NCBI RefSeq assembly: GCF_019083995.1
Contig: NZ_JAHRCU010000019.1
Span: 1-64,000 of the forward strand
DNA length: 64,000 bases
DNA from: Roseococcus sp. SDR
GTDB taxonomy: Bacteria; Pseudomonadota; Alphaproteobacteria; Acetobacterales; Acetobacteraceae
Reading direction: 5' to 3'
Part shown: positions 15,242 through 45,490 of the stretch, piece by piece
Position numbering within the stretch: position 1 is the stretch's first letter
Layout of the letters: each line of letters opens with the position of its first letter
Position numbers and translations under genes: made by a program
Notes under the pieces: model-generated
Databases searched by the model: none
Seen by the model: only the letters and a program-made list of their open reading frames with translations
Told to the model about the DNA's origin: nothing

Positions 15242-16564
15242 CTAGTTGCCGGGCCGCAGGTCCAGCACGGCGCGCAGCCCTTTTCCGCCCGCGCCCGTCT
15301 CCAGCCGCAGCGTGCCGCCATGTGCCTTGGCGGCGGCGGCGACCAGCGCGAGGCCGAGGCCCGTGCCCGGCGTGGAGCGGCTGCGATCCAGGCGGTGGAA
15401 GCGGCGCGTCACGGCTTCGCGCTCGGCTTCCGGAATGCCCGGCCCGTCATCCTCCAGCTCGATCACCGGGCCGGGCCTGAGGCGCAGCGTGATGCGCGGG
15501 CCGCCATGGGTGATGGCGTTCTCGATCAGGTTCACCACCGCCTGGCGCAGCAGCCCCGCATCGCCGGCCATGCTGACCCCCGGCGCGATCTCGCGCGTCA
15601 GGCTGTGGCCCGCTTCCTCGGCCACCGCCTCCATCACCTCCGCGCATTCGGTGAGCAGCGTGGAGAGATCCACGGGGGAAAACCCCTCGCGCAGCACGCC
15701 GCTTTCGGCGCGGGCGATGCGCAGCAGCGCGGCGAAGCTCGCCAGCACGGAATCGAGCTCCGCCAGCGCGCGCTCCATCACCTCGGCGTCGCGCGCTGCG
15801 TCCCGCGGTGAAGCCAGCGCACCCTCCAGCAATTGGCGCAGGCGCGAGAGCGGGCTGCGCAAATCATGCGCGATGTCGTCCGTCACCTGGCGCTGCGCCT
15901 GCATCAGCGCCTCGATGCGGCCGAGCAGCGCGTTGAAGGTGGTGGTCAGCCGGTCGAACTCGTCGCCCCGGCCGGAGAGCGGCAGGCGGCGCGTCAGGTC
16001 GCCCTCCATCACGCCGAGCGCCGCCGTGCGCGCGCTCGCGAGGCGCTGCTCCATCCGCCCCGCCGCGATAAAACCCAGCAGCAGCGCCAGGACCGCCGCG
16101 ACGCCGCCCGCGATCGGTGGGGTCCAGGCCAGCGCCGAAGCCGCGCGATCCACCGGCGTCAGGTCGGCGGCCACCAGCAGCGTGGCGCCCCCGGGCAGGT
16201 TGCCGCCCAGCACGCGCAGGCTCGGCCGCTCGCCCGTGCCGGGGAGGTTGGCGAAGCCGCGCAGCGCGGGCAGCGCCTCGGGGATGCGGCCCGCGATGGG
16301 GCGGCCATCGGGCCCCAGCAGCGCCACGAAAAGCGGGCCCCGGCGACGCGTATAGGCCTCGACCGCCAGAGCGAGCCCGCGCAGGCCGAATTCCTCATAT
16401 TCGCGGAGAAATCCATCCGCCTCGGCCGCGATGGCGAGGTCGAGCTGCTGGCGCAGCGCCGCCTCCGCCCGCAACCAGCCCCAGCCCGACCCCAGCAGCG
16501 AGAGCACCAGCATCACCACAGCCGAGGCGGTGGCCGCGCGCAGGGCGAAGCTGCTGCCCCGCAT
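15242..16564 (-). CDS. Sensor histidine kinase (OmpR-type partner)
   Basis: The 440-residue membrane kinase has helices at about 11-30 and 150-168 with a periplasmic sensor of about 120 residues between them. A HAMP linker (about 170-222) leads to the HisKA domain with His233 in DDIAHDLRSPLS. The HATPase domain has the N-box NLIENAITHGG and a glycine-rich TGLGLALV. ATG 16564 overlaps the stop codon of the response-regulator gene (TGATG), so the pair is co-translated. It ends an operon of four genes. The stimulus is unknown; the large periplasmic loop suggests an envelope or extracellular signal. Confidence 0.9.
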   Translation of the reverse strand: MRGSSFALRAATASAVVMLVLSLLGSGWGWLRAEAALRQQLDLAIAAEADGFLREYEEFGLRGLALAVEAYTRRRGPLFVALLGPDGRPIAGRIPEALPALRGFANLPGTGERPSLRVLGGNLPGGATLLVAADLTPVDRAASALAWTPPIAGGVAAVLALLLGFIAAGRMEQRLASARTAALGVMEGDLTRRLPLSGRGDEFDRLTTTFNALLGRIEALMQAQRQVTDDIAHDLRSPLSRLRQLLEGALASPRDAARDAEVMERALAELDSVLASFAALLRIARAESGVLREGFSPVDLSTLLTECAEVMEAVAEEAGHSLTREIAPGVSMAGDAGLLRQAVVNLIENAITHGGPRITLRLRPGPVIELEDDGPGIPEAEREAVTRRFHRLDRSRSTPGTGLGLALVAAAAKAHGGTLRLETGAGGKGLRAVLDLRPGN

Positions 16565-17247
16565 CACGTGTCGGGTGCCTGCAGCGCGTAGCCCGCGCCG
16601 CGCACGGTGCGGATCATCGGCGCCTCGCCCGGCAGGTCGAGCTTGCGGCGCAACCGGCTCACATGCACATCCACCACATTGGTGGTGGGATCGAAGCTGA
16701 AATCCCAGACCTTCTCCAGCAGCATGGTGCGGGTCACCACCTGGCCGGCATGGCGCAGCAGATATTCCAGGAGGCGCCATTCGGTGGGCATCAGGTCGAG
16801 CTTGCGCGCGCCGCGCGTGGCCACCCGCGTCAGCAGATCCATCCGCAGATCGCCCAGCGTGAGCACGGATTGCTCGGCCGGCGGCCCGGCCGGGCGGCGG
16901 GCCAGCGCCCGAATCCGCGCGCGCAGTTCCGCGAAGGCGAAGGGCTTGGCCAGGTAGTCATCAGCCCCCGCCTCCAGCCCCTCCACGCGCTTTTCCACCT
17001 CGCCCAGCGCCGTCAGCACCAGGATGGGCGTCGTGATCTCCGCCATGCGCAGCGCGCGGATGATGGAGAGCCCATCCGGCCCGGGCAGCATGCGGTCCGT
17101 CACGATGATGTCGAAGGGCTCGCCCATCGCGAGGAAGAGGCCATCGCGGCCATTGGCCGCGTGGTCCACCACATGCCCCTCCTCGCGCAGGCCCTTGGCG
17201 ATATAGGCCGCGGTGCTCTCGTCATCCTCGATGAGGAGGATGCGCAT
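16564..17247 (-). CDS. OmpR/PhoB-type response regulator
   Basis: The 227-residue DNA-binding regulator has a receiver domain with acidic pair Glu7-Asp8, phospho-acceptor Asp51 (IIVTDRMLPG) and Lys101 (LAKPF). A winged-helix domain (about 130-220) contains the recognition region TTNVVDVHVSRLRRKLD. The TDRMLPG phosphorylation loop is characteristic of the QseB/CusR-like branch. It lies six bases after the SDR gene and overlaps the kinase gene, giving the order TMEM43-like, SDR, regulator, kinase. Confidence 0.92.
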   Translation of the reverse strand: MRILLIEDDESTAAYIAKGLREEGHVVDHAANGRDGLFLAMGEPFDIIVTDRMLPGPDGLSIIRALRMAEITTPILVLTALGEVEKRVEGLEAGADDYLAKPFAFAELRARIRALARRPAGPPAEQSVLTLGDLRMDLLTRVATRGARKLDLMPTEWRLLEYLLRHAGQVVTRTMLLEKVWDFSFDPTTNVVDVHVSRLRRKLDLPGEAPMIRTVRGAGYALQAPDT

Positions 17248-17253
17248 GCGCGC

Positions 17254-17994
17254 TCAGCTCAGCATCTGCCCGCCATCCACCACGATGGTGTGGCCGGTGA
17301 CCCAGCCGGCGAGCGGCGAAGCGAGGAAGAGCACCACATTGGCCACTTCCTCCGGCTTGCCCATGCGGCCGAAGAGGATGGAGGCCAGCGTCTTGTTGTA
17401 CAGCGCGGGGTTCTCGGTCTTGCGCTTCTCCCAGCTGCCGCCCGGGAATTCGATGGAGCCGGGGGCCACGCCATTCACGCGGATGCCATCCGGCGCATAG
17501 GTCGCGGCCTGGGACTGCGTGTAGTTGATCAGCAGCGCCTTCACCGCGGCATAGGCCGGGCCGCGCACGGAAGGCCCGAAGCCCGAGATGGAGGAGAGGT
17601 TGATGATGTTGCCGCGGCTTTCCTTCAGCGCAGGCAGGGCGGCGGCGGTGGCGCGGAAGGTGGCCAGCACGTCCACGTTCAGCGCAGCCGCCCAGCCTTC
17701 CTCGGTATCCGTCATGCCGAAGCCGGACGCATTGTTCACCAGCACGTCGCACCCGCCGAGCGCGGCCACGGCTTCGCCGATGTAGCGCTTCACGGCTGCG
17801 CCATCGCCGAGGTCGCAGGTCGCGGCATGCGCCTTGGGGCCGAGCTCCGCCTTGGTGGCGGCCAGCGCCTCGGCGCCGCGCGCGCAGATGGAGACGGCGG
17901 CGCCCGCCTGCGCGAAGCCCAGCGCCACGCTGCGGCCGATGCCCTTGCTGCCGCCACAGACGATGACGCGCTTGCCGGTAAAGTCGAAGCTCAT
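17254..17994 (-). CDS. Short-chain dehydrogenase/reductase (SDR)
   Basis: The 246-residue classical SDR has the cofactor loop GGSKGIG at 14-20, NNAS at 88-91, Ser136, Tyr149 and Lys153 (YAAVK). The C-terminal VVDGGQ matches acyl-carrier-protein-reductase-like members. The cofactor preference and substrate cannot be told. ATG 17994 overlaps the stop codon of the TMEM43-like gene (ATGA), and the regulator gene follows after six bases, so it lies inside a tight four-gene unit. Its placement beside a two-component system is unusual and suggests shared regulation rather than a standard fatty-acid role. Confidence 0.9.
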   Translation of the reverse strand: MSFDFTGKRVIVCGGSKGIGRSVALGFAQAGAAVSICARGAEALAATKAELGPKAHAATCDLGDGAAVKRYIGEAVAALGGCDVLVNNASGFGMTDTEEGWAAALNVDVLATFRATAAALPALKESRGNIINLSSISGFGPSVRGPAYAAVKALLINYTQSQAATYAPDGIRVNGVAPGSIEFPGGSWEKRKTENPALYNKTLASILFGRMGKPEEVANVVLFLASPLAGWVTGHTIVVDGGQMLS

Positions 17995-23151: not shown

Positions 23152-24510
23152 TCAATCGGGCCCGCGATAGGATTCGGACGCCAGCCGCCCTGGCAGGTCG
23201 AGCCGCGCGGAGAGGCCGCCCAGCCGGGTGGAGCGCTCCAGGCTCAGATGCCCGGCATATAGCGCGGCCAGATCCGAGACGATGGCAAGGCCGAGGCCCG
23301 ATCCGGGCTTGGCCTCATCCAGCCGCACGCCACGCATCAAGGCGGCCCCATCCTCGCCCTCCGGCAGGCCTGGGCCGTCATCCGCCACCTCGATCGTGAT
23401 GCGCCCCGGTGCCGAATGGGTCACCCGCACCGCGACCTGGCGCTGCCCATACTTGCAGGCATTCTCCATCAGGTTCCCCAGCATTTCCGTCACATCCTGG
23501 CTGTCGGCCCGGATGCGGGCATCGGCCTCGCCGCTCACGCGGATGGTGATGCCGCGCGCGGCGGTCAGGCGGCGCAATGCGGTGGCCAGCGCCTCGGCCA
23601 ATGCCAGGGGCATGCATTCCGCCCCCGCGCTGCCTGCCAGCGCACCCGCGCGCGCGCGGCGGAGGTGGTGCTGCACCAGGCGCTCCAGCGTGGCCGACTG
23701 CGCCCGGGCCCCGGGCAGATCCCCGGTTTCCAACGCGTTCCGCAGCACGGCGATCGGCGTCTTCAGCGCATGGGCCAGGTTGCCCACATGGTTGCGCGCG
23801 CGGTCCACCGTCGCGCGGTTCTGCTCGATCAGCGCCTCGATCTCGGCCACGAGCGGCGCGATTTCGGCCGGCGCCACCACATCCATGTGCTGCCGGCGCC
23901 CTTCGCGCACCTCGGCCAGCTCCTCCTGGGTGCGGCGGAGCGGGCGCAGGCCCCAGAGCACCAGAAGCGCCACCACGGCGACGAGGCCCGTGCCCAGCAG
24001 CGCGAAGGCGAGGATCACGTTCTGCCGGAGCGAGGCGATCTCCTCATCCGTGCCCTCGCGCACCACGGCCACCTGCACGGTGATGGGCACGAGGCCGAAG
24101 CGGCTCTCCAGCTGCACGTCGCGCTCCAGCAGGCGCAGCCGTTCGGAACGCGGGCCCTCCACGTCCCGGGCGCGCACGCCCTCGGGCTCACGCAGTGGCG
24201 GCAAGAGGCGCGAATCCCAGAGCGAGCGCGAGGTGGCCTGGCTGCCGCCCGGGCCGGTGATCTGCCAGTAATGGCCCGAGAGCGGGCGCTCGAAGGCGGG
24301 ATCGGCCAGCGGGCGGGTCAGGATCGGGCCGGCCGAGGGGTCGAAGGCGGCGGCGGCCACCACCGCATCGAGCAGGCTGCCCAGGCGCGCATCCGCCGCC
24401 GTCTCGATCTGCCGCTGGTCTGTCTGCACGACGAACCAGCCCATCAGGCCAAGCCCCAGCGCCACCCAGAGGGTGGTCAGCAGCAACAGCCTTCGGGTGA
24501 GGGACTTCAA
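23152..24510 (-). CDS. PhoQ-like sensor histidine kinase
   Basis: The 452-residue inner-membrane kinase has helices at about 8-28 and 165-188 around a periplasmic sensor of about 135 residues, a HAMP segment, and an atypical HisKA box NLAHALKTPIAVL with His247, typical of the PhoQ-like group. The HATPase domain shows NLMENACKYG and ADDGPGLPEGE. The start is TTG 24510, forming TTGA with the regulator stop codon; no ATG in the first 20 codons preserves the first membrane helix. It is the third gene of a PepSY-regulator-kinase operon. Confidence 0.9.
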   Translation of the reverse strand: MKSLTRRLLLLTTLWVALGLGLMGWFVVQTDQRQIETAADARLGSLLDAVVAAAAFDPSAGPILTRPLADPAFERPLSGHYWQITGPGGSQATSRSLWDSRLLPPLREPEGVRARDVEGPRSERLRLLERDVQLESRFGLVPITVQVAVVREGTDEEIASLRQNVILAFALLGTGLVAVVALLVLWGLRPLRRTQEELAEVREGRRQHMDVVAPAEIAPLVAEIEALIEQNRATVDRARNHVGNLAHALKTPIAVLRNALETGDLPGARAQSATLERLVQHHLRRARAGALAGSAGAECMPLALAEALATALRRLTAARGITIRVSGEADARIRADSQDVTEMLGNLMENACKYGQRQVAVRVTHSAPGRITIEVADDGPGLPEGEDGAALMRGVRLDEAKPGSGLGLAIVSDLAALYAGHLSLERSTRLGGLSARLDLPGRLASESYRGPD

Positions 24511-25190
24511 CCGGGCGCGGCGGCGGCGGGCGAGGCCGGGATCAGCCGGTAGCCCTGGCCGCGCACCGTCTCGATCAGCTGATCCCCGAGCTTGCGCCGA
24601 AGGCGCGCCACGATGACCTCCAGCGTGTTGGAATCGCGGTCGAAATCCTGGGCGTAGAGATGCTCGGTCAGCTCGGTCTTGGAGATCGGCCGGCCGGCAT
24701 GCAGCGCCAGATAGGCCAGCATCCCGTATTCCAGCGCCGTCAGCCGCACCGCCTGCCCATTGCGCGAGACGGCGCGGGCGGCGGTGTCGAGCCGCACCTC
24801 GCCGAACACCAGCTCGGTCTTGGCCACACCATTGGAGCGGCGGATCAGGGCATTCAGCCGTGCCACCAGCTCGGCCATGGCGAAGGGCTTGGCGAGGTAG
24901 TCGTCGGCGCCGGCGTTCAGACCCTCCACCTTCTCGGTCCAGGAATCGCGGGCGGTGAGGATGAGGACGGGCATGGCACGCTCGGCCGCGCGCCAGCGGC
25001 GCAGCACCGTCAGCCCATCCACCCGCGGCAGGCCGAGATCCAGCACCACGGCGTCATAGGGCTCGGTCTCGCCGAGATAGAAGGCCTCCTCGCCATCCAT
25101 CGCGCCATCCACCGCGAAGCCCGCCTCGGTCAGGCCGGTGCGGAGCTGCTGGTGCAGTTCGGGGCTGTCTTCGACGATCAGGAGGCGCAT
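24507..25190 (-). CDS. OmpR/PhoP-type response regulator
   Basis: The 227-residue regulator has a receiver domain with Glu7-Asp8, phospho-acceptor Asp51 (VVLDLGLPRVDG) and a conserved LAKPF lysine near 101. The C-terminal winged helix carries DSNTLEVIVARLRRKLG. DLGLPRVDG resembles the PhoP/TctD/PmrA branch, matching its PhoQ-like kinase partner, whose gene overlaps by four bases. It lies 60 bases downstream of a PepSY protein gene. Paired 11-bp direct repeats upstream of that gene are candidates for its own binding site. Confidence 0.92.
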   Translation of the reverse strand: MRLLIVEDSPELHQQLRTGLTEAGFAVDGAMDGEEAFYLGETEPYDAVVLDLGLPRVDGLTVLRRWRAAERAMPVLILTARDSWTEKVEGLNAGADDYLAKPFAMAELVARLNALIRRSNGVAKTELVFGEVRLDTAARAVSRNGQAVRLTALEYGMLAYLALHAGRPISKTELTEHLYAQDFDRDSNTLEVIVARLRRKLGDQLIETVRGQGYRLIPASPAAAAPG

Positions 25191-36848: not shown

Positions 36849-37561
36849 GGCGCCTCGATCTCGGGGCGCTTGCCGCGCCGCTGCAGCCAGGCCACGCCGA
36901 AGAGGTCGAAGATGCTCACCGCCAGCCGGTCCAGCGTGCCGTAGTTGGAGGCGCCGCGCAGCCGGGGGCGGTGGTTCACCGGCTCGCTCAGCACCACGGC
37001 GCCGGCGCGCAGCGCCAGCGCGGGCAGGAAGCGGTGCATGTGATCGAAGTGCGGCATGGTCTGAAAGAGGGCGCGCGGAAACAGCTTCAGCCCGCAGCCG
37101 GTATCCGGCGTCGCGTCCTTCAGGAGCGAGGAGCGGATGGCGTTGGCGAGGCGCGAGGAGCGCCGCTTCACCCAGCTGTCCTTCCGGTTCACACGGTGCC
37201 CGGCCACCATCACCCAGCCGCCGGTCGCCGCAGTTTCAGCCTCGGCGCGAGCCAGCATGCGGGGGATGTCGGCAGGGTCGTTCTGGCCGTCACCATCCAG
37301 CGTGGCGATCCAGGTGCCGGCCGCCGCCGCCACGCCCGTCATGATGGCGGCCGATTGTCCGCAGCTCGCCTTGTGGCGCAGCCGGCGCACCGCCAGCCCG
37401 GCCAGGATCTCGGGCGTCGCGTCGGTCGAGCCGTCATCCACGTAGATGATCTCGTGCGGGATCGCGGCCAGGGCCGCCTCGATCTCGGCGACCAGGGGGG
37501 CGATGTTCGGGGCCTCGTTCCGCACGGGAATGACGACCGAAACCAGCGGTGCGGCGGACAT
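36845..37561 (-). CDS. Dolichol-phosphate mannosyltransferase-like glycosyltransferase (family 2)
   Basis: The 238-residue GT-A enzyme begins VSVVIPVRNEAPNIAPLV and has IIYVDDGSTDAT (about 39-50) and LDGDGQNDPADIP (about 88-100), the DxD-type metal site of DPM1-like enzymes. No C-terminal membrane helices are present, so it is the short form that makes a polyprenyl-phosphate sugar donor. It overlaps the VTT membrane-protein gene; that partner could help present or flip the lipid-linked sugar, an inference from coupling alone. It is divergent from the heme A synthase gene. Confidence 0.88.
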   Translation of the reverse strand: MSAAPLVSVVIPVRNEAPNIAPLVAEIEAALAAIPHEIIYVDDGSTDATPEILAGLAVRRLRHKASCGQSAAIMTGVAAAAGTWIATLDGDGQNDPADIPRMLARAEAETAATGGWVMVAGHRVNRKDSWVKRRSSRLANAIRSSLLKDATPDTGCGLKLFPRALFQTMPHFDHMHRFLPALALRAGAVVLSEPVNHRPRLRGASNYGTLDRLAVSIFDLFGVAWLQRRGKRPEIEAP

Positions 37562-37677
37562 GCGGGGGCGTTACCAGCGCGCATCCCGGGCCACAAGCCC
37601 GCGATGGTGGCAATTCTTGCGACTTCGCGTTGAGCCCATGGGCTGGCGGCGTGGTTCTCGGTTACTATGTCGCGGTC

Positions 37678-38769
37678 ATGCCCTTCGATGCCCACAGCTT
37701 TCCTGCCCACGCCGCCGCGGCGCCGCGCGGCGACCGCGCCAATCCCCGCGCCATCGCCATATGGCTGCTCACCGTCGCCGGCCTGATCTGGGCCATGGTG
37801 GCGCTGGGCGGCGCCACGCGCCTCACCGGCTCGGGCCTGTCCATCATGGAATGGGCGCCGCTCGCCGGCACCCTGCCGCCGCTCAGCCAGGCCGAGTGGC
37901 AGCGCCTCTACGACCTGTACCGCACCATCCCGCAATACCAGCTTCAGAATGCCGGCTTCGGGATGGAGGGTTTCCAGCGCATCTTCTGGCTGGAATGGGG
38001 GCATCGCTTCTGGGGCCGGCTGATCGGCCTCGCCTACCTGGTCCCCCTGCTCTGGTTCTGGGCGCGCGGCGCCATTCCGCGCGGGCTCGGGCCGCGGCTC
38101 GCGCTGCTGTTTGTCCTGGGCGGGATGCAGGGCGCGATCGGCTGGTTCATGGTCGCCTCGGGCTTCGAGGCGGACCGCACCGCCGTTTCGCCCTATCGCC
38201 TCGTGCTGCACCTCTCCATGGCCTTCATCCTGTTCGGTCTGATCCTCTGGACCGCGCTCGGCCTGCTGCGGCCCGCACCGGTGGAGGTCATCCCGCAGCA
38301 GGGCAAGATCCGCCGGCAGGTGGTGGCGGCCTTCTGGCTGGCCGCGCTGACCATGCTGGCCGGCGGCTTCGTGGCCGGCATCCGCGCCGGCTTCAGCTAC
38401 AACACCTTCCCGCTGATGGACGGCCAGCTCATCCCCGCCGGCTATCTCGACCTTGATCCGGTCTGGAAGAATCTCACGGCCAATATCGCCGCCGTGCAGT
38501 TCAACCACCGCCTCCTCGCCTCGCTCACGCTGCTGGCCGCTCTCGGCGCGGCCATTGCCGCACGCCGCCTGCCGGACGGCTTCGCCCGCCGCGCGGTCTG
38601 GGCCATGGCGGCCGTGATCGGCGCGCAATATGCGCTGGGCATCGTGACCTTGCTGCATGTCGTGCCGGTCTCCCTCGGCACGCTGCACCAGGCGATGGCG
38701 GTCGGCGTCCTTGCCGCCGGGCTCTGCGCCTGGCACGGGCTGCGGGCACCACCCGCCGCGGCACCCTGA
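37678..38769 (+). CDS. ctaA: Heme A synthase (COX15/CtaA type)
   Basis: The 363-residue membrane enzyme oxidises heme O to heme A for cytochrome oxidase. It has eight hydrophobic segments in two repeated halves. Heme-ligand candidates are His109 (EWGHRFWGR), His178 (LVLHLSMAF), His277 (FNHRLLA) and His337 (LGTLHQAM). W-L-x-x-V-A-G-x-I-W-A-M-V-x-L-G-G-A-T-R-L-T opens the protein, as in type 2 (COX15-like) enzymes. ATG 37678 starts 35 codons before the first helix, with no strong ribosome-binding site. The PAS-kinase gene follows two bases after its stop. Confidence 0.94.
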   Translation: MPFDAHSFPAHAAAAPRGDRANPRAIAIWLLTVAGLIWAMVALGGATRLTGSGLSIMEWAPLAGTLPPLSQAEWQRLYDLYRTIPQYQLQNAGFGMEGFQRIFWLEWGHRFWGRLIGLAYLVPLLWFWARGAIPRGLGPRLALLFVLGGMQGAIGWFMVASGFEADRTAVSPYRLVLHLSMAFILFGLILWTALGLLRPAPVEVIPQQGKIRRQVVAAFWLAALTMLAGGFVAGIRAGFSYNTFPLMDGQLIPAGYLDLDPVWKNLTANIAAVQFNHRLLASLTLLAALGAAIAARRLPDGFARRAVWAMAAVIGAQYALGIVTLLHVVPVSLGTLHQAMAVGVLAAGLCAWHGLRAPPAAAP

Positions 38770-38771
38770 GC

Positions 38772-41700
38772 ATGGACGCCGCCGCCCCCCGCCCTCCTGA
38801 GCTTCTCACGGCCCTGCCGCTGGCGCTCATGGCCTTCTCGGGCGCAGGCGGACTGGTCTTCGCCAACCCTGCCATGCATGCCCTGCTCAAGGTGGACCAT
38901 GCCGCGCTCCAGCCCGGCGCGGCCCTGGCTGATGTGCTGCGCCTGCTGGCCTATCGCGGCGTGCTCGGCCCCGGCGATCCCGGCCAGCGCCTGCGCGAGG
39001 TCCTGGCGCTCGACCTCGGCCTCGCGCATCGCCGCCTGCTGCGCGACGTGGAGGGGCGTGGCCTCGAATGGCGCATCCTGCCGCTGCCCGATGGCGGCCA
39101 CCTGTTGACGCTGGCCGATGTCAGCGAGTTCCAGTCGGCGCGAGAGGCGGCGGAGCGAGAGGCGGCCGCGCTCTCGGGCATGCTGGCGCGGCTGAACAAC
39201 GGCGTCGCGCAGTATGACGCCGAACGCCGGCTGGCGCGCAGCAACCCCGCCTATGCGCGCCTGTTGGGCCTGCAGCCCCACGTCCTGCGCCCTGGCATGG
39301 CGTTGGGCGAGATCGTCGCCCACCAGCAGGAGGCGGGCGAGTTCGACGCCGCCGAGGCCGCCGCCGTCGCGGCGCACCTCGCCGCCCGCTCCATCGTGCA
39401 GCCCTGGCGGCATGAGCGCACCCGCCCTGATGGCCGCACCGTCCGCTTCGACAACCAGCCCATGCCCGATGGCGGCTGGCTGGTCGAGATCATGGACATC
39501 ACCGACGCGCACCAGGCCGAGCAGGATGTCCGCCGGCGCGTGGCCCTGCAGGACGCGCTGATGGAGGCGCTGCCCGTGGGTGTCGCCGTCTATGGCCCAG
39601 ACCGCGTGCTGACGCAGGTGAACCCGGCCTATAACCGCATCATGGCGCACAGCCCGGTGCGCCTGGGCGAGAACCTGCGCGACATCCTGATGCGCCGCGC
39701 CATCGCTGGCGAATTCGGCCCCTGCGACCCGGAGGTGGAGGTGCCCCGGCGCCTCGCCTCCACCGCCACCTCGCATGGCTTCGAGCGCCGCACGCCGGAG
39801 GGCATCGCCACCAGCCACCGCAGCGTGCCGCTGCCCGATGGCGGACATGCCATGGTGGTGGCCGACGTCACCGCCCTGCACGCCGCCCAGGCCGAGGCGC
39901 GGGAACGCGCCGAGGTGCTGGCCCACATGCTGGAGAGCACGCGCCACGGCATGGCGATGTTCGACGCCGAGGGCACCGTCATCGCCGCCAACCGCCTCGC
40001 CGCGCATTTCTGCGGCCTGCCGCCCGAGGCCTTTCGCCGTGGCGTGAACATCCGCGAATTGCGCGCGCTGCAGATCCAGCTGGGCGTGCATGGCGACAAG
40101 CTCTCGACCGACCGTTTCCTGGCGGAGCGGATGAACGAGCCGCTGCGCGGACCCGACCGATACCGCCGCACCAACCCCGACGGCACGGTGATCGAGATCA
40201 TCACCGACAAGCTGCCCGAGGGCGGCTATGTGCGCTCCTTCACCGACGTCACCGCGCAGGTCCAGGCCGAGGCGGAGGCAACGAGCCGCGCCGCCTCGCT
40301 GCAGGCCGTGCTCGACAACATGCGGCATGGCGTCATCCTGTATGATGGCGAGGGTTACGTCCGCACCGGCAACGCGCTGGGCGCCCGCCTTGCGGGCCTG
40401 CCGCCCGAGATGCTCAAGCCCGGCGTGCATTTCGACGCCCTGCGCGACATGCAGGCTGAGCTGGGGGAGCATGGCGAGGGCGAGATCGGCGTGCGCTGGC
40501 GCCAGAATCGCGCGCGCGAGCCATGGAAAGGCGAGGGCACCTTCACCCGCAAGCGCCCGGACGGCACCATCATCGAGGTCCGCACCGACCTGATCCCGGG
40601 CGGCGGCTGCGTGCGCTCCTTCACCGACATCACCGCGCTGACCGAGGCGCAGGCGGCCGCCACGCAGCGCGCCGCCATGGTCCAGGCGATGCTGGACAAC
40701 ATGCGCCACGGCATCGCGCTGTTCGACGCGCAGGACCGGCTGCTGACCTTCAACCGGCTCTGCGCCACGCTGATGGGCCTCGAGGGCTGGCTGCGCCCGG
40801 GGCTCGACTACAGCGAGGTGCTGGCCCGGCAGCTCGAAACCGGCGAGTTCGGTGAGAGCGGGGCGGCAGCCGACCACGTGGCCGCCCTCCTCACGCGCGA
40901 CAAGAGCGTGCCCAATACCGTTCGCCGCCGCCGCCCCACCGGCGAAGAGCTGGACGTAACGGCGAGCCCGGTGCCGCAGGGCGGCTTCGTGCTGACGCTG
41001 ACCGATATCACCGCCCGCGTGGTGGCCGAGCGCGAGGCCGAACGCCGGGCCGAGGTGCTCTCCGCCACGCTGAACGCAGCGCGCCAGGGCATCATGCTGT
41101 TCGACGCCGAGGGACGCGTGGTGGCGGCGAACGACATCGCGGCGCAGCTTACCACGCGGGCCGGGCCCGCCTCGCTCATCGGTCGCGGCCATGCCGACAT
41201 CGTCGGCAGCCAGCACCGCACCGAGGGCGCGAGCGAGGCGGAGGTGGAGCAGGTGATGCGGCAGGTGGCGGCGGTGGACCGCCGCGCGCACCACCGCTAC
41301 CAGCGCCACCGCCGGGACGGCCTGGTGCTCGACATCAGCTCCGACCCGATGCCCGAGGGCGGCTACGTCGTCTGCATCTCGGATGTGACGGATCTGGTCC
41401 ATGCGCGGGAGCAGGCGCAGGCCCGCGCGGCCCTGCTCTCCGCCACGCTGAACGCGGCGCGGCAGGGCATCACGCTGTTCGATGCCGACGGCGTCGTCCT
41501 CGCCGCCAATGACATCGGCGCGCAGTTCGCGGGGCTTCCCGATGCCGCCGCGCTGATCGGCCGCCGCCATGCCGATATCGTCGCCGCCCAGCGCGTCCAT
41601 GAGGGCGCCACACCCGAGCAGCAGGCCGAATTGGCGCGCCGCTTCGCCGCGACGGACCGCACGAAGCCCCACTGCTACCAGCGGCAGCGGCCGGACGGGC

Positions 41701-44039
41701 GGATCTTCGACATCAGCTCGGACCCGATGCCCGAGGGCGGCTACGTCGTCTGCATCTCGGATGTGACGGATCTGGTACGCGCGAACGAGCAGGCCCAGGC
41801 CCAGGCTGCCGCGCTCTCCGCCACGCTCGACGCCTCGCGCCACGGCATCACGCTCTATGGGCCGGATCACCGTGTCATCGCCACCAACCGCATCAGCACC
41901 GCGATCGCGGGCTATGCCTCGCCCGAGGCGATGGTGGGTCAGAGCTTCGCGGAGGTGATGCGGAACCAGGCGCCGCTGGAACAGTTGGCCGATCCGGAGG
42001 CCGAGGCTGCCTTCCTGCGTCAGGCGCTGGCGCTCGATCGCACCAAGCCGATCCGCTACCAGCGCCGCCGCACGACCGGAGAGGTCTTCGACGTCGCCTC
42101 CGACCCGACGCCGGAGGGTGGCTTCGTCGTCTCCGTCTCGGACGTGACGCCGCTGGTGGATGCGCAGGAGGAGGCGCAGCGCCGCGCCGGCATCCTGCAG
42201 GCCATGCTGGAGAACAGCCGCCAGGGCATCGTGCTGTATGACGCGCAGCACCGCCTCGTCGCCGCCAATGCGTTGGCCGGCGAGATGATGGGCGTCCCCG
42301 ACCTGCTGTCCCGGCCCGGCACCAACCAGGCCGAGATCCTGGCAGCGCAGCGCGCCCGCGGCCTCTACGGTGGCGAGGATGGCGGCGCCGCGCAGGAGCG
42401 CTTCTTCCTCGAGATCGACCGCAGCAAGCCGCACCGCATGCAGCGGAGCCTGCCGGATGGCCGCCGCTACGATGTGGCCTCGGACCCGACGCCCGATGGC
42501 GGCTTCGTCATCTCGGTGTCCGACATCACGCCGCTGGTCCGCGCCGAGGCGGCGGCGGAGCAGCGCGCGGGCCTGTTGCGCACCATGCTGGAGAACAACA
42601 CCTCCGGCGTGCTGCTCTATGACAGCGAGCGCCGGCTGCGTGGCTTCAACAGCCTTGCCGTCACGCTGACCGCCATGCCCGATCTGTCGGAATGCCTCGG
42701 TATGCGCATCGAGGACCTGCTGGCGCGGCAGAGCCGCACCGGCAACCTCGGCAACCCGGCCGATGCCGAGCGCGAGCGCCGCCGCCTGATCGCGCTGGAT
42801 CGCAGCCAGCCCTCCCGCGGGCAACGTGTGACGCAGGATGGCCGGGTGCTGAACTTCGCCTCCGACCCGACGCCCGATGGCGGCTTCGTCGTCTCGCTCA
42901 CCGATGTGACGCCACTCGCCCGCGCCGAGGCGGAGGCGAAGCGCCGCGCCGAGATCCTGGGCGTGATGTTGGGCAATATCCGCCATGGCATCGTGCTCTT
43001 CGACAAGGATGGCCGCCTCGTCGCCTCGAACGCCAAGCTGCAGCAGATGCTGGGGCTGCCGGAAGCAGCGCTGGCGCCCGGTGCCCACATGCATGAGATG
43101 GTGGATGCGCTGCGCGCCCAGGGCGAGTACGGCGAGGCCGAGGCCGGGGAACGCGTCGCCGAGGCGATCAAGAACCGGCCGCGCTTCGCACCCATCCGCT
43201 CCCTCCGCCCGCGGCCGGACGGCACCGTCCTCGAGGTCGTCTCGGACCCCACGCCCGATGGCGGATGGGTCGTCACCTATACCGACGTCACAGAGGACCG
43301 GCAGATCCGCGGCGAGCTGGAAGCGGCGCGCGAGGCGGCCGAGGCGGCGAGCCGCGCCAAGTCCCGATTCCTTGCCACCATGAGCCATGAGCTGCGCACG
43401 CCGCTCAACGCCGTGATCGGTTTCGCCGACGTGCTGTGCAGCGGCGCCGCCCCGGCGCAGACCGAGGAATTCGCCCAGGCGATCCGAGAGGCGGGGCAGC
43501 ATCTGCTCTCGCTGATCGACGACATCCTCGACATCACCCGCACCGAGACCAGCAACCCGCCCATCGCGCTGGAGGAGGTGGTGCTCCGCGAGGTGATCGA
43601 TGGAGCGGCCCGAATGATCGGTCCCGCCATCGCGGCAGGCGGCCTGCAGCTGGTGCGGGAGATCCAGGACGGGCTCCCGCGCCTGCGGGGCGATACGCGC
43701 CGTCTGCGCCAGGTGCTGTTGAACCTGCTCAGCAACGCCACCAAGTTCACCGAGGTGGGTGGCACCGTCACGCTGCGCGCCTTCCACACCGAGGCCGGGC
43801 TGACGATGGAGGTGCAGGACACCGGCATCGGGATCGAGGCGAAGGATCTGGAGCGGGTCTTCGAGCCCTTCACCCAGCTCGACAGCGCGCTATCCCGCCG
43901 CTTCCCGGGCTCCGGCCTCGGCCTGCATCTCTGCCGCTCGCTGACCCAGGCGCAGGGCGGCGTGCTCATCCTCGAAAGTACGCCGGGTGTCGGCACCACC
44001 GCCCGCATCACCTTCCCGGCCTCCAGCCTGATCTTCTGA
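38772..44039 (+). CDS. Giant soluble histidine kinase with twelve tandem PAS-like modules
   Basis: The 1755-residue protein has no signal peptide or membrane helix. Twelve related PAS-like modules of about 125 residues begin near 14, 135, 257, 381, 507, 635, 761, 884, 1010, 1140, 1267 and 1393. Most begin M-L-x-x-x-R-x-G-I-x-L-F-D-x-x-x-R-L-V-A-x-N and end P-D-G-G-F-V-x-S-x-T-D-V-T. A HisKA domain follows with His1539 (TMSHELRTPLN), then HATPase with NLLSNATKFTE, DTGIGIE and GSGLGLHL. There is no receiver domain. Modules 7 and 8 are nearly identical in places at DNA level. It starts two bases after ctaA and is followed 14 bases later by tldD. Ligands and partner regulator are unknown. Confidence 0.9.
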   Translation: MDAAAPRPPELLTALPLALMAFSGAGGLVFANPAMHALLKVDHAALQPGAALADVLRLLAYRGVLGPGDPGQRLREVLALDLGLAHRRLLRDVEGRGLEWRILPLPDGGHLLTLADVSEFQSAREAAEREAAALSGMLARLNNGVAQYDAERRLARSNPAYARLLGLQPHVLRPGMALGEIVAHQQEAGEFDAAEAAAVAAHLAARSIVQPWRHERTRPDGRTVRFDNQPMPDGGWLVEIMDITDAHQAEQDVRRRVALQDALMEALPVGVAVYGPDRVLTQVNPAYNRIMAHSPVRLGENLRDILMRRAIAGEFGPCDPEVEVPRRLASTATSHGFERRTPEGIATSHRSVPLPDGGHAMVVADVTALHAAQAEARERAEVLAHMLESTRHGMAMFDAEGTVIAANRLAAHFCGLPPEAFRRGVNIRELRALQIQLGVHGDKLSTDRFLAERMNEPLRGPDRYRRTNPDGTVIEIITDKLPEGGYVRSFTDVTAQVQAEAEATSRAASLQAVLDNMRHGVILYDGEGYVRTGNALGARLAGLPPEMLKPGVHFDALRDMQAELGEHGEGEIGVRWRQNRAREPWKGEGTFTRKRPDGTIIEVRTDLIPGGGCVRSFTDITALTEAQAAATQRAAMVQAMLDNMRHGIALFDAQDRLLTFNRLCATLMGLEGWLRPGLDYSEVLARQLETGEFGESGAAADHVAALLTRDKSVPNTVRRRRPTGEELDVTASPVPQGGFVLTLTDITARVVAEREAERRAEVLSATLNAARQGIMLFDAEGRVVAANDIAAQLTTRAGPASLIGRGHADIVGSQHRTEGASEAEVEQVMRQVAAVDRRAHHRYQRHRRDGLVLDISSDPMPEGGYVVCISDVTDLVHAREQAQARAALLSATLNAARQGITLFDADGVVLAANDIGAQFAGLPDAAALIGRRHADIVAAQRVHEGATPEQQAELARRFAATDRTKPHCYQRQRPDGRIFDISSDPMPEGGYVVCISDVTDLVRANEQAQAQAAALSATLDASRHGITLYGPDHRVIATNRISTAIAGYASPEAMVGQSFAEVMRNQAPLEQLADPEAEAAFLRQALALDRTKPIRYQRRRTTGEVFDVASDPTPEGGFVVSVSDVTPLVDAQEEAQRRAGILQAMLENSRQGIVLYDAQHRLVAANALAGEMMGVPDLLSRPGTNQAEILAAQRARGLYGGEDGGAAQERFFLEIDRSKPHRMQRSLPDGRRYDVASDPTPDGGFVISVSDITPLVRAEAAAEQRAGLLRTMLENNTSGVLLYDSERRLRGFNSLAVTLTAMPDLSECLGMRIEDLLARQSRTGNLGNPADAERERRRLIALDRSQPSRGQRVTQDGRVLNFASDPTPDGGFVVSLTDVTPLARAEAEAKRRAEILGVMLGNIRHGIVLFDKDGRLVASNAKLQQMLGLPEAALAPGAHMHEMVDALRAQGEYGEAEAGERVAEAIKNRPRFAPIRSLRPRPDGTVLEVVSDPTPDGGWVVTYTDVTEDRQIRGELEAAREAAEAASRAKSRFLATMSHELRTPLNAVIGFADVLCSGAAPAQTEEFAQAIREAGQHLLSLIDDILDITRTETSNPPIALEEVVLREVIDGAARMIGPAIAAGGLQLVREIQDGLPRLRGDTRRLRQVLLNLLSNATKFTEVGGTVTLRAFHTEAGLTMEVQDTGIGIEAKDLERVFEPFTQLDSALSRRFPGSGLGLHLCRSLTQAQGGVLILESTPGVGTTARITFPASSLIF

Positions 44040-44053
44040 AGGACAATTCCCGC

Positions 44054-45490
44054 ATGCCGCTCGACACGCCCCTCGCCGTCACGGACCGGCTCTTCTATGC
44101 CGGGCTCGACCCCGAGGTGGCCGCGCGCCGCCTGCGCGAGGCGACCGACGGCGCCGAGGATGGTGAGCTCTTCTTCGAATACCGCGAGAGCGAGGCGATC
44201 AGCCTGGAGGATGGCCGCATCCGCTCAGCCAGCTACGACACGCAGCGCGGCTTCGGCCTGCGCGCCATCCAGGGCGAGGCGGCGGGCTATGCCCATTCCG
44301 GCGAGATCAGCGATGCCGCGCTGGCGCGTGCGGTGGCGACCGTGGGCGCCGTGCGGCAGGGGCGCAGCGGCAGCCTTGATGTCGGGCCGCGCGCCACCAA
44401 CACGCAGCTTTACGAAGCGGCCAATCCGCTGACCGCGATGGGCTTCGCCGAGAAGACCGAACTGCTGATGGAGATCGACGCTTATGCGCGCGGTCTTGAT
44501 CCGCGCGTGACGCAGGTGATGGCCTCGCTGACGGGCGAATGGCAGGCGGTGCAGATCCTGCGGCCCGACGGGCTGCGCGTGGCCGACCTCCGCCCGCTGG
44601 TGCGCTTCAACGTCTCGGTCGTGGTGGAGGAGAATGGCCGGCGCGAGACGGGCAGCTTCGGCACGGGTGGGCGCTTCGCCTATGCCCGCGTCATCGGGGA
44701 TGGCGGCTGGCAGGCGGGCGTGGCCGAAGCCCTTCGGCAGGCGCTGGTGAACCTGCAGAGCATCCCTGCGCCCGCCGGTGAGACCGAGGTGGTCCTCGGC
44801 CCGGGCTGGCCCGGCATCCTGCTGCATGAGGCCATCGGCCACGGGCTCGAAGGCGATTTCAACCGCAAGAAGACCAGCGCCTTCGCGGGGCTGGTGGGAA
44901 GCCGCATCGCGGCCCCGGGCGTGACCGTGGTGGATGACGGCACCATCCCCGACCGGCGCGGCAGCCTCACCGTGGATGACGAGGGCACGCCCTCGGGCCG
45001 CACGGTGATGATCGAGGATGGCTATCTGCGCGGCTTCATCCAGGACCGGCAGAATGCGCGCCTCATGGGCGTGGCCCCAACCGGGAATGGCCGGCGGCAG
45101 AGCTTCGCGCATATCCCCATGCCGCGCATGACCAACACCATCATGCTGGGTGGCCAGCACGCGCCGTCCGAGATCATCGGCAGCGTGAAGAAGGGGATCT
45201 ACGCCGTGAATTTCGGCGGCGGCCAGGTGGACATCACCTCCGGCAAGTTCGTGTTTTCCATGAGCGAGGCCTACATCATCGAGAACGGTCGCATCGGCGC
45301 GCCGGTGAAGGGGGCCACGCTCATCGGCAACGGGCCGGACGCGCTGACCAAGGTGAGCATGATCGGGAATGACAGCGCGATGGACCCGGGCATCGGCACC
45401 TGCGGCAAGAACGGCCAGGGCGTGCCCGTGGGCGTGGGCCAGCCGACGCTGAAGATGACGGGCCTTACCGTGGGCGGCACCGCCATCTGA
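44054..45490 (+). CDS. tldD: TldD metalloprotease subunit
   Basis: The 478-residue protein is TldD of the TldD/TldE (PmbA) protease, which degrades unfolded peptides and processes some peptide antibiotics and antitoxins. The zinc motif HExxxH is at His258-Glu259 to His262 (HEAIGHGLEGDF). GTCGKNGQGVPVGVGQPTL near the C-terminus carries the third-ligand region. ATG 44054 follows the kinase gene by 14 bases. tldE/pmbA is not in this window. Confidence 0.94.
   Translation: MPLDTPLAVTDRLFYAGLDPEVAARRLREATDGAEDGELFFEYRESEAISLEDGRIRSASYDTQRGFGLRAIQGEAAGYAHSGEISDAALARAVATVGAVRQGRSGSLDVGPRATNTQLYEAANPLTAMGFAEKTELLMEIDAYARGLDPRVTQVMASLTGEWQAVQILRPDGLRVADLRPLVRFNVSVVVEENGRRETGSFGTGGRFAYARVIGDGGWQAGVAEALRQALVNLQSIPAPAGETEVVLGPGWPGILLHEAIGHGLEGDFNRKKTSAFAGLVGSRIAAPGVTVVDDGTIPDRRGSLTVDDEGTPSGRTVMIEDGYLRGFIQDRQNARLMGVAPTGNGRRQSFAHIPMPRMTNTIMLGGQHAPSEIIGSVKKGIYAVNFGGGQVDITSGKFVFSMSEAYIIENGRIGAPVKGATLIGNGPDALTKVSMIGNDSAMDPGIGTCGKNGQGVPVGVGQPTLKMTGLTVGGTAI

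Follow-up and report, generated by a model that had tools for sequence, protein, structure and literature searches.

A soluble histidine kinase encoded between the heme A synthase gene ctaA and the metalloprotease gene tldD in Roseococcus sp. SDR carries twelve tandem PAS_7 modules, and its orthologues at this locus form a natural syntenic series of 3 to 15 modules joined by one fixed junction length. To our knowledge, such a series, growing mainly through its kinase-proximal module type and keeping an invariant four-heptad junction, is new. We lean toward reading the protein as a dimeric sensor kinase in which a fixed N-terminal head is followed by an expandable coiled-coil/PAS relay. Coiled-coil register signaling has been worked out mostly with short or engineered PAS kinases; the natural series makes it testable how far a PAS signal is conducted, whether modules add, gate or just space, and whether there is adaptive value in their number. 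PAS number alone is not new: histidine kinases with up to 19 PAS have been published, e.g., Aulosira tenue A0A1Z4MZL8 (PMC10468136). Cyanobacterial multi-PAS kinases likewise have a single kinase core preceded by a very long run of PAS domains; the ctaA-tldD kinases may differ from them in having modules that are all PAS_7, the 3-15 series at one locus and the 28-residue junctions. A search of the available literature found no paper on internally duplicated PAS arrays.

The window, i.e., the whole 64,000-nucleotide stretch of DNA that was analyzed, contains the kinase, its parts and its neighbors at the following positions:

37549..38769, + strand: ctaA (COX15-CtaA, heme A synthase; Pfam), conserved upstream neighbor
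38772..44039, + strand: soluble orphan histidine kinase with 12 PAS_7 modules, HisKA and HATPase_c, 1755 aa (ORF, Pfam)
38778..39131, + strand: M01, type P1, N-terminal head; its best-conserved core part is the E/F region
39162..39509, + strand: M02, type P2
39540..39878, + strand: M03, type P3; the entire module is conserved within the genus, dN/dS lowest or near-lowest
39909..40259, + strand: M04, first stack module (P4 clade)
40290..40640, + strand: M05, stack module
40671..41018, + strand: M06, stack module
41049..41396, + strand: M07, stack module; 64% identity to M08, the most recent duplication
41427..41774, + strand: M08, stack module; missing in G006
41805..42155, + strand: M09, stack module
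42186..42536, + strand: M10, stack module
42567..42917, + strand: M11, stack module
42948..43298, + strand: M12, kinase-proximal module; orthologous to the final module of four-module kinases
43356..43547, + strand: HisKA (DHp); MSHELRTP contains the phospho-acceptor His, which lies 34 residues past the last D of M12
43689..44021, + strand: HATPase_c, with N, G1 and G2 boxes intact
44054..45490, + strand: tldD metalloprotease (Pfam), conserved downstream neighbor

The kinase ORF opens with ATG, and what the initial annotation had read from the letters is confirmed: a 1755-residue frame with twelve PAS units, HisKA and HATPase domains, lacking a receiver and any evident membrane segment. In Pfam, the twelve PAS_7 (PF12860) stretches total 854 bits, each singly above the 27-bit curated cut-off (48.6 to 108.7 bits), and are followed by HisKA (residues 1529-1592, 66.7 bits) and HATPase_c (residues 1640-1750, 90.8 bits). 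A Pfam scan of the ORF finds no Response_reg, and the top 19-residue Kyte-Doolittle window, 1.82 at residue 11, lies within module 1 and makes no convincing membrane helix. The H-box His and the N, G1 and G2 boxes of a class I histidine kinase are all present; H409, N525, D553, G555, G583, G585 and G587 (model A2 numbering) are invariant in 27 orthologues. Opposite the kinase runs a 1781-aa antisense ORF, 38442-43787 (-), which is probably a high-GC codon-bias artefact since orthologues differ widely in the length of their best antisense frame (574-1864 aa).

The modules are closed by a D[VI][ST] motif that recurs every 123-127 aa, and their pairwise identities range from 19 to 64%, the M07/M08 pair being the highest. 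Junctions, counted from the DxT motif's D up to the G preceding the next A-beta strand, measure exactly 28 residues, i.e., four heptads, in 416/416 measurable cases of the named locus set, whereas module cores (G to D) take twelve different lengths, 90-104; the 416 junctions come from related sequences and are not independent events, and the contrast with the variable cores is what counts. A second, partly overlapping locus set adds 114 junctions of 28; in it, two first junctions deviate (19 and 29) and three could not be measured. Between the last D and the phospho-His, 69 of the 70 measured proteins have a spacing of 34, the remaining value (-146) being a mis-hit, and junctions of unrelated PAS_7 kinases, 28 or 35, are also whole heptads. 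Mean linker hydrophobicity peaks at 104 degrees per residue vs the heptad value of 102.9. Together with the whole-heptad linkers, this sequence periodicity is what would be expected of a PAS kinase linked by 7n coiled coils. Regular spacing of tandem PAS domains has been noted earlier, and the engineered PAS/LOV kinase YF1 depends on 7n linkers (PMC6798134). In YF1/YHF, 7n-residue coiled-coil linkers carry the signal and tandem sensors integrate (PMC6798134); those kinases are engineered and hold one or two sensors, whereas the ctaA-tldD kinases are natural and hold up to 15 modules.

Predicted structures point the same way. AlphaFold2 models built with orthologue alignments (A2, pLDDT 85.3; A3, pLDDT 88.5) agree with the sequence profiles on the PAS fold: every covered module is predicted to be PAS-folded, with topology E-E-H-H-E-E-E and PAS matches in Foldseek and VIA-align, so that a non-PAS fold, named earlier as the outcome that would count against the array, was not borne out. 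The connecting helices are modeled as unbroken over 22-23 residues, and a single predicted helix continues from M12 into DHp. The models are monomeric, with pTM of 0.38 and 0.45, and neither the relative placement of modules nor the dimer is confidently predicted. Module pairs resemble the PAS-A/PAS-B tandem of FixL (M03-M04, Z 10.6, 4.7 A over 214 residues; M02-M03, Z 10.2, 4.4 A over 222 residues), in which a soluble-type PAS tandem similarly feeds HisKA; by contrast with FixL, the window kinase has 12 modules, is unrelated in sequence (13-15% identity) and shows no His common to all modules. The long signaling rod envisaged in the initial annotation gains support because continuous inter-module helices, as predicted, coincide with four-heptad spacing and FixL-like pair geometry; its companion idea, a tunable ligand buffer, is unsupported.

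Conservation separates the front of the protein from the rest. Purifying selection acts on every module (dN/dS 0.06-0.41 between close species), with the strongest constraint on M03 and M04 in comparisons with two relatives (G015 and G019); some stack modules (M04, M09) are constrained as strongly as M03 among close relatives. In M01 and M03, the pocket-lining E/F stretch is conserved to the same degree as the remainder of the module. In M04-M12, no other part is conserved so poorly between species (40-56% vs 64-81% for the G-H-I sheet), and none diverges more among the modules of a single protein (20% identity). Relative to the rest of the module, E/F conservation in P1 is 1.06-1.20 in every subset; in P3 it is 0.92-0.97 in near relatives, falling to 0.60 in the distant four-module set. 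In Falsiroseomonas-type kinases, the last module reaches 0.94 (five sequences). These sequence patterns favor a sensing head and a relay stack, a split that is a tendency only because P3 conservation fades and the Falsiroseomonas-type last module is an exception.

The same data bear on an unlikely alternative, a multi-input integrator in which the majority of the twelve modules would each have a ligand or partner to bind, and duplication with divergence would add inputs. E/F divergence within one protein is what diverged pockets would produce, the stack modules are orthologous across the genus and under purifying selection, and M05 and M10 are strongly conserved; however, a distinct ligand kept at each position would protect E/F, which is instead least conserved within each stack position between species.

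In the head-and-relay reading, this soluble class I sensor histidine kinase would be dimeric and co-produced with CtaA and TldD. Its head, P1 and P3 with their conserved pocket-forming E/F, would mainly read the state of a ligand or partner. The signal would travel as a coiled-coil twist or register change via in-register dimeric modules to DHp, where it would alter the kinase/phosphatase balance toward a regulator encoded elsewhere. Extra P4 modules would then serve as relays and spacers, making the rod longer, and may tune or add inputs.

How the stack grew was followed in sixty relatives and then in 80 named loci of Acetobacteraceae/Roseomonadaceae. Module counts are 4 in 36 loci and 5 in 15, then 6 to 8; the window's genus (Roseococcus, Rubritepida and allies) has 9-12, and the extremes are 14-15 modules in another genus and 3 in one. 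Very long PAS arrays, described initially as uncommon, are so in general but are usual in the window's genus, with 14-15 modules in relatives. The survey for orthologues missing the array gave a divided answer: the ctaA-tldD placement is kept, and the commonest state is only four modules, which goes halfway toward the refutation that the initial annotation had set for itself. Four is likely the ancestral number because the deepest branches of the ctaA+tldD tree mostly carry four.

Position profiles P1-P4, built from the 36 four-module kinases and recovering the order perfectly on their own set, read longer kinases as single P1, P2 and P3 followed by P4-type modules up to the kinase. The window kinase is P1-P2-P3-P4x9; M01-M03 are thus three separate types and only M04-M12 are of one kind, and the array is not homogeneous as first described. 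The order has exceptions: P2 is by a small margin the best-scoring profile for three interior modules, found in L099, L152 and L171 respectively, and the Falsiroseomonas-type group has duplicated P3 instead. A maximum-likelihood tree of 96 modules groups interior with last modules (SH-aLRT 97), P3 copies (96), P2 (88) and P1 (82). The module sequences show that the nine P4-type modules of the stack descend from the kinase-proximal type through tandem duplication. Interior modules of the Roseococcus group, L113, L152 and L165 mostly cluster by lineage, and the stack has therefore probably expanded independently several times.

Two accounts of this growth can be weighed. We tentatively entertain the possibility of a natural accordion, a relay rod that evolves by whole register-preserving PAS units while the sensor head before it and the kinase behind it stay fixed, and whose length (3 to 15 modules) is a tuned trait; if so, rod length would set the threshold, cooperativity or reach of the signal. 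The alternative, near-neutral length drift in which alike modules recombine unequally and selection demands the heptad register only, appears improbable: at least 15 module-number changes on the ctaA+tldD tree (64 loci), also between close species, and the absence of M08 from the G006 kinase speak for it, but the numbers are clade-clustered, with 4 held in many lineages and 9-12 throughout one genus, and every module is under purifying selection.

The setting of the gene is largely conserved. The kinase begins 2 bases past the ctaA stop and ends 14 before the tldD ATG (44054), gaps that agree with those first reported. Among the 80 named loci, ctaA lies upstream of the kinase in 76 and both flanks are present in 65, about 10 of the misses falling at contig ends. 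Neighboring genes sometimes overlap, e.g., by four bases in Humitalea L110, which suggests that ctaA, the kinase and tldD form one operon. In an Elioraea subgroup (L135, L147, L160, L170), ctaA adjoins the kinase and no tldD lies behind it. An Acetobacteraceae-like ctaA-kinase-tldD locus also occurs in a record titled Opitutaceae MAG (L121), likely a mis-binned contig.

This kept placement, with genes overlapping or nearly touching, and the FixL-like module pairs are what a heme, oxygen or redox sensor tuning terminal oxidase assembly would lead one to expect, a reading compatible with the rod mechanism that we nevertheless regard as rather unlikely: no His, Cys or Met is shared by all modules at a common position, sequence searches for solved relatives of PAS_7 returned weak matches only, and gene neighborhood alone names no ligand. 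The residue search that had been proposed for each module found no heme- or flavin-binding residue common to all twelve; it did yield single candidates, such as H61 of M05 or H48 of M07/M08. In FixL-type sensors, a proximal His in the F helix binds heme; a single conserved His occurs in M05, M07 and M08 only.

The kinase is called an orphan because just 3 of the 80 loci have a REC-like frame in the scanned flanks, in a search that does detect its positive controls; the cognate regulator looked for beside the kinase was thus not found there. The window also encodes two OmpR-type regulators (16.9 and 24.9 kb), which were rejected as partners since other histidine kinases lie beside them. These regulators belong to two ordinary OmpR-type two-component pairs, 15242-17500 and 23152-25190 (-), unrelated to the kinase, one near CopS/CzcS-like and the other PmrA/PhoQ-like.

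Comparison with named kinase families places the core and leaves the array apart. In NCBIfam, the NahK/ErcS' hybrid kinases (NF041831) match best, over the kinase core plus several PAS stretches; at 266 bits, the match is far under the 1500-bit cut-off, and the window kinase lacks a receiver (no Response_reg), so membership was rejected. NahK has far fewer PAS units. Caulobacter DivL and DivJ and the Brucella PdhS kinases are similar in core fold and sequence, the DivL core being alike at 33% identity (TM 0.87 to target), and DivJ, like the window kinase, has no receiver. NCBIfam scores speak against membership among the DivJ/PleC/PdhS cell-cycle kinases, a family recognized by phosphorylation of DivK/PleD, with 170.5 bits vs a cut-off of 1000 for DivJ and 170.4 vs 2000 for PdhS. 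DivL is without a phospho-His, whereas the window kinase has one.

Other PAS_7 proteins were met along the way. Very long PAS_7-containing frames in relatives (up to 2760 aa) mostly have one PAS_7 module and lie elsewhere than this locus; those of L073, L074, L080, L081 and L084, from related genera, span 1801-2760 aa with one PAS_7 module each. The genome that carries the window kinase encodes a second PAS_7 array kinase (L068:3636-7502, G000:C17), a hybrid with a receiver and 6 modules, whose linkers measure 35, 28, 28 and 28.
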